Source of the DNA: an uncultured Alphaproteobacteria bacterium
GTDB taxonomy: Bacteria; Pseudomonadota; Alphaproteobacteria; UBA11222
NCBI GenBank assembly: GCA_937888955.1
Contig: CALAQW010000012.1
Span: 1 to 49,453, forward strand
Length of the DNA stretch: 49,453 nt
Direction: 5' to 3'
The notes beneath the pieces are model-generated. The model had not been told where the DNA came from and made no database searches. It saw only the letters and a list, made by a program, of their open reading frames with translations. A program made the translations under genes and the position numbers. Shown piece by piece: positions 19,913 to 22,851 of the stretch (positions within the stretch are counted from its first letter, which is position 1; the number at the start of each line of letters is the position of its first letter).

Positions 19913-21724
19913 TCAAAGGCAATTGGCCACATCGTCGATATGCAATTGCACCTTGCGCATGCCGCGCCAGTTATTGGGGCGCAATTTACCCGCGATATGA
20001 AGCTTTCCCGCACGCATGCCTTTCAGCAAAACCGCACCTAATGCCGTATCCGCGCTGTTGAATGAAATACCCTGTAATTTGCTGCCGGCGTCATCGGCAA
20101 AAATGCAGCGAACATGTTTTTCCCCCACAATTGCCGAATCAATAATTCTGACATTCCCGAAAGCAAAGCGCGGCTCCGGATTGCCCGCCCCGAAAGGTCC
20201 GGCACCCGCCAACAGCTCGACCAACTCGCTATCCGCCGCACCAAGACCCAGTACAGCGTCGATACCGATGCCGCGTGCTATCGGCCTGTCGCGCGACTGT
20301 TCTGTAATCCGGCTCTCCAGAAACGAGACCAGGTCCGGCAACTTGTCGGTTGCCACCGTCAGCCCGGCCGCCATCTTGTGGCCGCCACCATTGATCAGAA
20401 GCCCTGCCTGTTTGGCCGCTGTCACCGCCGCCCCGAGATCAAGCCCCGCGACCGATCGGCCTGATCCCTTTCCGGTGCCGCCCCCTTCCCCTTCGGATTC
20501 CAGGGCAATGACGATGGCCGGCAGATGAAAGCGGTCCTTCAACCGGCTGGCAACGATGCCGATGACCCCTGGATGCCAGCCCTTGGCGGCAACAATGATG
20601 GCTGCTGCCTGCGGCCGCTCGGCCACTTGCCGCGCGGCCATTTCCTGCGCCTCGTCAAGCACTTGTGTCTCAATCGCACGGCGTTCGCTGTTATAAAGGT
20701 CAAGCTCCTGCGCGAGGGTCTGGGCATGTGCGGGATCTTCAGTGCTGAGCAATAGCGCGCCAAGTTCGGATCGCCCGACCCGGCCGCCCGCATTGATACG
20801 CGGCCCGAAAACAAACCCGGCATGATAGGTGGTGGGGGGCTCGTCGATGTCGGCAACATGCGCAAGCGCGCTCAGCCCCGCATTGCCCCGCCGCGCCATC
20901 ACCGCGAGCCCCTGTCTGACAAACGCACGATTAACACCGGTCAGCGGCACCACATCGCAAACCGTGCCAAGCGCCACAAGGTCAAGCCAGCGCATGAGAT
21001 TGGGCTCGTCACGGCCCGGCGCATTATAATACCCGCGCTCCCGAAGCAACCGGTTGACGGCGACAGCAAACAAAAACACGACACCGATTGCCGCAAGCTG
21101 GCCCTGGCCCGACCGGTCGTCCAGACGGTTTGGATTGACGATGGCGTATGCTTCGGGCAAAGCCGGCTCCGCCTGATGATGATCAAGCACGATGACATCA
21201 AGCCCGGCCTTGCGGCCGTCCGCGAGCGCGGCAAAGGCGGAGATACCGCAATCCAGCGTGATGACAAGCGATGCACCCTGCCCGGCAAGTTGCGCCATCG
21301 CGGCGCTGTTTGGGCCGTATCCTTCTGTCAGCCGATCCGGAATATAGAGTATCGGCGCATGGCCAAGCGCGCGCATAAACCGGTTTAACAATGCAGCGGA
21401 AGTTGCGCCATCAACATCATAATCTCCGAATAGCGCGACCGTCTCATTTGCGCTGATCGCATCGGCAAGCCGTGCTGCGGCGCGGTCCATATCGGCAAAC
21501 AGGGAAGGGTCGGGCAAATCGGCCTGAATTGTCGGATTGAGATAGGCATCCGCATTTTCAGGCGTGATGCCGCGATTGCTGAGCACCTGCCCGACAATGT
21601 CGGGCAGACCGCATCGCTGCGCAATGGCAATCGCCCGGCGCAGATCGCTGCCCCGTGCTTCCCAACGCTGTGCCAGCGCCGACTGCGCAACGCCCAGAAC
21701 GGCCGTGTCATCGGTTGCGCGCAT
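19913..21724 (-). CDS. recJ: Single-stranded-DNA exonuclease RecJ
   Basis: 603-residue 5'-3' ssDNA exonuclease of recombination and mismatch repair. DHH phosphoesterase motifs: FGDYDVDGATSAAL (about 100-113), ITLDCGISAF, VLDHHQAE (motif III) and GTVCDVVPL. DHHA1 domain with INGGGHKMAAGLTV and a C-terminal OB-like region with GAGNPEPRFAF. The ATG has only a weak GAG upstream. Its 146-nt leader toward glpX is packed with hairpins. It ends beside tRNA-Glu. Confidence 0.97.
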   Translation of the reverse strand: MRATDDTAVLGVAQSALAQRWEARGSDLRRAIAIAQRCGLPDIVGQVLSNRGITPENADAYLNPTIQADLPDPSLFADMDRAAARLADAISANETVALFGDYDVDGATSAALLNRFMRALGHAPILYIPDRLTEGYGPNSAAMAQLAGQGASLVITLDCGISAFAALADGRKAGLDVIVLDHHQAEPALPEAYAIVNPNRLDDRSGQGQLAAIGVVFLFAVAVNRLLRERGYYNAPGRDEPNLMRWLDLVALGTVCDVVPLTGVNRAFVRQGLAVMARRGNAGLSALAHVADIDEPPTTYHAGFVFGPRINAGGRVGRSELGALLLSTEDPAHAQTLAQELDLYNSERRAIETQVLDEAQEMAARQVAERPQAAAIIVAAKGWHPGVIGIVASRLKDRFHLPAIVIALESEGEGGGTGKGSGRSVAGLDLGAAVTAAKQAGLLINGGGHKMAAGLTVATDKLPDLVSFLESRITEQSRDRPIARGIGIDAVLGLGAADSELVELLAGAGPFGAGNPEPRFAFGNVRIIDSAIVGEKHVRCIFADDAGSKLQGISFNSADTALGAVLLKGMRAGKLHIAGKLRPNNWRGMRKVQLHIDDVANCL

Positions 21725-21752
21725 CGCTTCGATCTCAGCCCTCGATCAGGTC

Positions 21753-21792
21753 GACGCACCATGTTGCATTCGCCGCGCAACAGTGGTGCGTC
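21753..21792 (-). repeat. Long hairpin upstream of recJ
   Basis: GACGCACCATGTTGC (21753-21767) pairs with GCAACAGTGGTGCGTC (21777-21792): 15 bp with a single bulged G and a 9-nt loop. It lies 29 nt before the recJ start codon. A near-palindrome TTGCATCATGGTGCAA follows at 21798-21813, and ACTGTTGC boxes recur in both orientations. There is no T-run. It could be a leader structure controlling recJ or paired operator half-sites. Confidence 0.6.
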
Positions 21793-21835
21793 AACTGTTG
21801 CATCATGGTGCAAACTGTTGCGCGACACCGCGTCA

Positions 21836-21865
21836 CTGGCGACATGATCGCCCGGATGTCGCCAG
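21836..21865 (-). repeat. Hairpin immediately after glpX
   Basis: CTGGCGACAT and ATGTCGCCAG are perfect 10-bp arms around a 10-nt loop, starting 5 nt past the glpX stop. There is no T-run, so it would be a factor-assisted terminator or an RNA-stabilising 3' structure between glpX and recJ. Confidence 0.6.
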
Positions 21866-21870
21866 ACGGA

Positions 21871-22851
21871 TCAGGTGCCGAATTTACTCTCGCTGACATG
21901 ACGCGCTTTCACCCAGCGCACCGTGCCGGTCCGCGAGCGCATGACGACGGTGTGGGTCGTGACCGACCCGTCCGCCGCGCGATGGATGCCGTCCAGCATC
22001 GATCCGTCCGTGACGCCGGTCGCGGCAAAAATCACATCGCCCGAAGCCATTTCTTCCAGCGTATATTTATGATCCGGATTGGCGACCCCCATTTCGCGGG
22101 CGCGCTGGCGCTGCTCGTCATTGGCGAATACAAGCCGGCCCTGCATCTGCCCGCCGATCGAGCGCAGCGCGGCAGCCGCCAGCACTCCTTCCGGCGCACC
22201 GCCTGTGCCGATATAGATATCGATGCCTGTGCCCTTTTCGGTGGTCGCGATCACGCCGGCGACATCGCCATCGGGAATAAGCTGAATCCGCGCGCCGGCC
22301 TTGCGGATGCTCGCGATAATGTCGGCATGGCGCGGCCTGTCGAGCACGCAGGCGGTAATGTCTTCCACCGCAACGCCCTTGGCGGCCGCAAGCAGACGAA
22401 TATTTTCCTCAGGTTCGCGATCAAGATCGACGAGCCCGGGTTCAAATCCGCCACCGATCGCGATTTTTTCCATATAGACGTCGGGTGCGTTGAGCAGGTT
22501 GCCCTTCTCCGCAAAGGCGATGACCGCCAGCGCATTGGGCATCGATTTCGCGGTAATGGTTGTGCCTTCCAGCGGGTCAAGCGCGATATCGAGCGCAGGC
22601 CCCTTCCCCGTCCCGACCTTTTCGCCGATATACAGCATCGGCGCCTCGTCGCGTTCGCCTTCACCGATGACGATGGTGCCCTGAATGTCGAGCTTGTTCA
22701 GCGCTGTCCGCATGGCATCGACGGCGGCCTGGTCGGCAGCTTTTTCGTCGCCGCGCCCGGTCAGCCGCGATGCTGCGACCGCAGCGGCTTCGGTAACGCG
22801 CGCGATTTCCATGCTGAATACCCGGCTGAGCACTGGTTCCTGCCCTGACAT
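21871..22851 (-). CDS. glpX: Fructose-1,6-bisphosphatase, class II (GlpX)
   Basis: 326 residues, the usual GlpX length. Metal and substrate motifs: VIGEGERDEAPMLYIGE (about 61-77), DPLEGTTITAK (the class II DPxEGT signature), GTGGAPEGVLAAAAL and ATGVTDGSML. It hydrolyses fructose-1,6-bisphosphate in gluconeogenesis. Some class II enzymes also act on sedoheptulose bisphosphate; nothing here suggests a Calvin cycle. It lies between hom and recJ on the same strand, 63 nt after hom. Confidence 0.96.
   Translation of the reverse strand: MSGQEPVLSRVFSMEIARVTEAAAVAASRLTGRGDEKAADQAAVDAMRTALNKLDIQGTIVIGEGERDEAPMLYIGEKVGTGKGPALDIALDPLEGTTITAKSMPNALAVIAFAEKGNLLNAPDVYMEKIAIGGGFEPGLVDLDREPEENIRLLAAAKGVAVEDITACVLDRPRHADIIASIRKAGARIQLIPDGDVAGVIATTEKGTGIDIYIGTGGAPEGVLAAAALRSIGGQMQGRLVFANDEQRQRAREMGVANPDHKYTLEEMASGDVIFAATGVTDGSMLDGIHRAADGSVTTHTVVMRSRTGTVRWVKARHVSESKFGT

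Follow-up and report, generated by a model that had tools for sequence, protein, structure and literature searches.

To our knowledge, systems of sites that organise bacterial chromosomes are known in few lineages, and Alphaproteobacteria lack both Noc and SlmA. Arrays of short direct and inverted repeats at helical spacing form the plasmid centromeres of the omega, TubR and ParR type, and the operators of PutA proteins with an RHH domain contain the sequence GTTGCA and are known only from the put region. The nucleoid-occlusion proteins Noc and SlmA have around 70 and 24-52 sequence-specific sites, respectively, dispersed over the chromosome (PMC4726725). In Caulobacter the MerR-like protein ZapT links the divisome and the terminus, and its ten sites are reported to be mostly inside ORFs and to have no consensus (PMC7188993). 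BldC is described as binding direct repeats of variable number head to tail, with one subunit per 9 bp (PMC5859096), and the sites of PhaR share the letters TGCA and are single palindromes located in promoters (PMC12542648).

The locus considered here belongs to a window of 49,453 nucleotides, namely the whole stretch of DNA that was analysed, which derives from the genome of an uncultured alphaproteobacterium (G000). A gap of 146 bp extends from the stop of glpX (21871, minus strand) to the start of recJ (21724, minus strand) and contains about ten GCRMCA hexamers in 107 bp, placed in both orientations, with AYGCRACAGTT as the extended unit. The two flanking genes are often found together: of the 110 loci examined by tblastn, 96 have a recJ match alongside glpX. 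A preliminary description of the gap had reported three hairpins, all of which are present, and recurring ACTGTTGC boxes in direct and inverted orientation, of which three were found, one on the minus and two on the plus strand. The features of the gap and of its flanks are the following, the gene names being those of the preliminary description.

19913-21724, minus strand: recJ-like gene, 31 bp downstream of the array core; its adjacency to glpX was established by tblastn
21753-21792, no strand assigned: bulged stem, in which the inverted words GCACCA/TGTTGC stand against GCAACA/TGGTGC
21755-21827, minus strand: array core of GCRMCA words, conserved in G001, a second genome of the window's genus
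21756-21761, 21777-21782 and 21822-21827, plus strand: GCRMCA words of the array core
21762-21767, 21784-21789, 21796-21801, 21806-21811 and 21816-21821, minus strand: GCRMCA words of the array core
21777-21784 (minus strand), 21794-21801 (plus strand) and 21814-21821 (plus strand): the three ACTGTTGC boxes
21798-21813, no strand assigned: near-palindrome TTGCATCATGGTGCAA with one mismatched pair, formed by two words tail to tail, TTGCATCA (variant word) and TGGTGCAA
21836-21865, no strand assigned: perfect 10-bp stem with one word per arm; no counterpart was aligned in G001
21839-21844 (plus strand) and 21857-21862 (minus strand): two further words, GCGACA, in the arms of the 10-bp stem
21871-22851, minus strand: glpX-like gene, upstream of the gap

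The excess of symmetry attributed to the gap in the preliminary description is borne out as a clustering of words beyond chance. The window as a whole has 40 copies of TGKTGCR (complement YGCAMCA), against about 39 expected, but seven of them are crowded into 62 bp of the gap; elsewhere no 100-bp interval holds more than two, and the maximum reached in 60 first-order Markov sequences was three. GCRMCA attains eight words per 75 bp in the gap, compared with at most five in 100 fourth-order Markov sequences. The words, rather than the hairpins, form the unit of the locus, and similar arrays exist elsewhere in the genome; both points had escaped the preliminary description. Scanning of positions 21600-22000 revealed no terminator-like or promoter-like site, including sigma-70-like ones. 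Two other symmetric elements were observed in the window: a perfect 19-bp inverted repeat at the contig end (positions 1-55) around GTGTGCTCTTCCGATCT, which we take to be an Illumina adapter and hence a library artefact and not biology, and a perfect loop-free palindrome of 28 bp at positions 375-402, ATCGGTAGCGGTCATGACCGCTACCGAT.

Further arrays were sought in G000 and in G001, the one other genome of the same genus available for comparison, so that the comparison within the genus rests on these two; four genomes of a sister genus (G002-G005, completeness 64-97%) were searched as well. BLAST with 166 bp at the gap gave no second copy in G000, and in G001 it recovered two sites, namely the orthologous gap and a stretch within an lpd/merA-like gene. 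A three-word pattern with free spacing of 3-16 matched at 24 places in G000 and at 20 in G001, and the reversed-pattern control at none in either genome; in G002-G005 there were 0, 1, 8 and 6 matches, which on inspection by eye looked like ordinary GC-rich sequence. Two further patterns and a weight matrix applied to 1.38 Mb of G001 yielded additional arrays, and the matrix returned seven strong, scattered arrays scoring 61-102, compared with 43.9 reached by Markov-3 sequences and at most 43.1 by reversed contigs. The array at rplY scores only 49.7 and was retained because its partner was found in G000, and the peaks scoring 46-55 at C22 258.9 kb, C22 267.0 kb and C24 73.4 kb of G001 were not counted as arrays. 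Inspection by eye led to the dropping of G000 C11:19237, C11:25410 and other GCGCCA-rich pattern matches, and of a cluster in an MCP gene in G001 C17. The palindrome was rejected as the array unit: TTGCNNCATGNNGCAA occurs at the window locus alone among the six genomes, and TGCRMCATGKYGCA is found in five places, one of which is the recJ array while the remaining four are not arrays when read.

At least 11 arrays were found in G000, where the recJ array has at least ten sisters, and 12 in G001. The preliminary description had named the lack of conservation and of a second copy as grounds for dismissing the locus; arrays occur instead elsewhere in the genome and are conserved in G001. The arrays are dispersed, in agreement with its suggestion of a small dispersed repeat element, but none of them is a sequence copy of another, so that this part of the suggestion does not hold. 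Eleven array pairs occupy gene positions common to G000 and G001, and they are given below together with a twelfth array, with the basis on which the neighbouring genes were named where recorded.

Array 1: upstream of recJ, in the window; G001 C13:320.1 kb
Array 2: between a PAS histidine kinase gene and a nitronate monooxygenase gene (Pfam)
Array 3: inside a cobB/cobQ-like gene, between the CbiA and GATase_3 domains (Pfam)
Array 4: upstream of an SDR gene
Array 5: between a nitroreductase-like gene and an MBL gene
Array 6: inside an ORF without Pfam match, read as anti-sigma-like
Array 7: inside the lpd/merA-like gene (named by eye)
Array 8: in the terminal part of a hydrolase-like gene that converges with a pyruvate-kinase-like gene (named by eye)
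Array 9: 3' end of a cofD-like gene, with a cofC-like gene following (named by eye)
Array 10: inside glnE (Pfam); partner found by tblastn, 84.5% identity
Array 11: upstream of rplY, beside a glycosyltransferase gene (Pfam); partner confirmed in G000
Array 12: between grpE-like and dnaK-like genes (by eye); recorded in G001 alone

Four arrays are thus located inside coding sequence (the cobB-like gene, glnE, the lpd-like gene and the anti-sigma-like ORF) and a fifth occupies the terminal part of a gene, and the neighbours of the arrays have no common function. In G001 the arrays are distributed on eight contigs (C3, C6, C7, C8, C12, C13, C16 and C22). The spread along the chromosome may be uneven, because the 319 kb read of C23 and C24 contain no strong array, where about two would be expected from the density elsewhere. 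On C22 the GC-skew minimum is at 188.1 kb and the arrays at 54.9, 157.6 and 314.3 kb lie within about 135 kb of it; the same contig also has canonical parS sites at two positions, 198157 and 200891, next to frames resembling mnmG and parA. As a separate observation, the cofD- and cofC-like genes at C22:314 kb, identified by eye, suggest the synthesis of coenzyme F420 in an alphaproteobacterium, and in G000 the loci C86:14310 and C177:39993 share the cofD-end array together with its flanks, owing either to duplication or to assembly overlap.

The spacing of the words is periodic. In 23 arrays comprising 162 words (definition GCNMCA), same-strand pairs up to 46 bp apart are grouped in four bands, with 79 pairs at 8-13 bp, 72 at 19-24, 55 at 29-34 and 41 at 39-45, separated by troughs with three pairs at 14-18 bp, one at 25-28 and three at 35-38; the stray pairs are one at 2 bp and two at 46 bp. 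The period is 10-11 bp, which places one word per turn of the DNA, on one face. The trough at 14-18 bp is not a search artefact, since the main search pattern permitted spacings of 9-22 evenly. Where an array is coding, spacings in multiples of three may in addition be favoured by the reading frame.

The comparison of the 11 pairs indicates that the words are retained between the two species. Of the GCRMCA words of G000, 61 of 79 inside the arrays and 39 of 104 outside still match GCRMCA in G001 (Fisher p = 1e-7), a count that leaves out words aligned to three or more gaps and in which conservation is favoured by the choice of the pairs, made partly because both species matched the pattern. 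The fixed letters G, C, C and A are kept at 290 of 316 positions in the arrays and at 334 of 416 outside, whereas for the degenerate letters R and M the figures are 115 of 158 and 175 of 208, respectively, so that these letters drift faster in the arrays. The retention of the fixed letters together with the drift of R and M is characteristic of selection on a degenerate consensus rather than on the exact sequence. In eight pairs, the lpd pair being left out, 348 of 425 columns are identical in the words and 309 of 455 in the spacers; where the encoded residue is the same in both species, the codon is also the same for 72 of 91 residues in four coding or gene-end arrays, compared with 777 of 1196 elsewhere. 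In two pairs the arrays differ in length by roughly one unit, 11 and 12 bp, which one member has gained or the other has lost.

Chance or compositional clustering of the words, which are moderately common in the window (219 GCRMCA), is scarcely conceivable and is taken as refuted: the gap exceeds the Markov controls for both words, the seven strong arrays exceed the reversed-sequence control, and the words are helically phased and retained across species. A structured RNA, either the recJ leader proposed in the preliminary description or a 3' end, with hairpins that function in the transcript, is highly improbable, although the minus-strand fold of the gap reaches -62.9 kcal/mol (z -2.1; plus strand z -1.8) and the pairing of the bulged stem is partly maintained in G001, where the outer 9 bp persist, one C-G pair having been replaced by T-A in a compensatory change (GACGCACCA/TGGTGCGTC to GATGCACCA/TGGTGCATC, two sequences compared). 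This single change fits the array unit, which has Y before GC, as well as an RNA, and the pairing in G001 is limited to these nine outer pairs, the inner stem and the third hairpin not being kept. Moreover, the folding z-scores of 18 arrays on both strands are weak and vary without pattern from -4.6 to +1.95, several arrays consist of direct repeats only, in which such hairpins are impossible, the arrays are oriented either way relative to genes or lie within them, and Rfam gives no match at the gap and only two tRNAs across the whole window. The hairpins are by-products of the array, because the words stand in opposite orientations. An origin of the arrays as remnants or copies of mobile elements (REP- or MITE-like, or transposase-site arrays at transposon ends) is improbable. 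It would agree with the finding that glpX and recJ are nearly contiguous in three of the four sister-genus genomes, from which the array gap is missing as if it had been inserted; in the fourth genome, G002, the two genes are separated by a gap of different sequence and without array. The G002 gap has inverted repeats of its own, for example GACATTTGAA...TTCAAATGTC. A second point in its favour is given by G132, a genome of another alphaproteobacterial family. A strict three-word pattern matched 63 of 385 alphaproteobacterial genomes, by eye mostly in simple tandem repeats, and the number of separate loci matched in G000 (five) and in G001 (four) is approached in G132 only, which contains at least five dispersed, non-identical arrays with an 11-bp unit, GCRACATNNAC, followed in several cases by TTTTT. 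Two of the G132 loci share about 220 bp, and these arrays, which may be a mobile or duplicated element, are taken as a system different from that of G000 and G001. Against a mobile origin, the arrays of the genus share no sequence beyond the words, the 166 bp at the gap being single-copy in G000, and the same 11 positions are occupied in two species; in addition, the lpd-like array arose by substitutions inside the gene, since the aligned genes of two sister-genus genomes show neither an indel nor an array.

On balance, the recJ-glpX gap is best regarded as a candidate binding-site array, recognised by a single DNA-binding protein that oligomerises and probably acts at the level of the chromosome. 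The putative protein would occupy each helical turn with a single protomer (or dimer) and would oligomerise along the array, and its main job would be the marking, compacting or anchoring of the nucleoid rather than the control of recJ. A chromosome-level role is favoured because of the intragenic and convergent placement of arrays and of the lack of a shared function among their neighbours, and of the scattering of the seven strong arrays over the 1.38 Mb of G001 scanned. The main alternative, possible though less likely, is that the arrays are operators of one global transcription regulator that binds direct repeats, as BldC- or OmpR-like proteins do, and that the recJ array controls recJ. 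Arrays are indeed located just upstream of recJ, rplY, the SDR gene, the MBL gene, the dnaK-like gene and the PAS histidine kinase gene, several of them shortly before the start codon (31 bp for recJ) as operators would be, and direct repeats of variable number correspond to the operator style of BldC (PMC5859096). However, four arrays are inside genes, one is between convergent gene ends, the neighbours lack a common theme and no sigma-70-like promoter is present around the gap. Of the three options of the preliminary description, whose interpretation is supported in part, the "cluster of operator sites" comes closest. The oligomerising protein with a chromosome-level role could, in a bolder and rather doubtful version, represent a novel type of nucleoid-marking system that spans the chromosome, in which an alphaproteobacterial protein would polymerise on phased arrays placed every ~100-300 kb, the intragenic ones being codon-bent, and would couple chromosome position to division or compaction. 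The arrays, with their clear word, phasing and coding placement, are a ready bait for the missing binder, and the helical phasing of a degenerate word combined with its cross-species retention is a computational signature usable on other genomes.

None of Noc, SlmA, ZapT and BldC matches the arrays in motif or distribution, and a literature search limited to open-licence papers, hence weak, found no description of such word arrays. The arrays resemble BldC operators in having direct repeats that vary in number and are spaced by about one turn of the helix, but the repeat of BldC is AATTNNNNC and its action is at promoters, while here the word is GCRMCA and many arrays are elsewhere. The word core TGCAAC is the complement of the GTTGCA of PutA operators, which are known only from the put region, in contrast to the many loci of the arrays; PutA with an RHH domain was also rejected as the binder, since RHH-bearing PutA proteins are longer than ~1,060 codons and the whole PutA-like frames of both genera, with 1,041-1,063 codons, were judged too short. 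With the centromeres of the omega, TubR and ParR type the arrays have in common short repeats, direct and inverted, at helical spacing; those centromeres are plasmid-borne beside partition genes, whereas the arrays are chromosomal and at many loci, and no partition genes were found beside them in the stretches read. The 16-bp palindrome of parS, TGTTTCACGTGAAACA, is absent from the recJ array and its canonical copies sit separately on C22 of G001; as the usual partition sites are present there, the arrays are something else. The arrays near the GC-skew minimum and the two parS sites of C22 therefore correspond neither to parS nor to a terminus-only system of the MatP/ZapT type, which the three C22 arrays exclude. 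The arrays share with ZapT the alphaproteobacterial host and the presence of sites within ORFs, and differ from it in that the ZapT sites are biased to ter. Finally, they are dispersed over the chromosome like the sites of Noc and SlmA, but those sites, which are scarce at the terminus, are palindromes, while the sites described here are multi-word, helically phased arrays.
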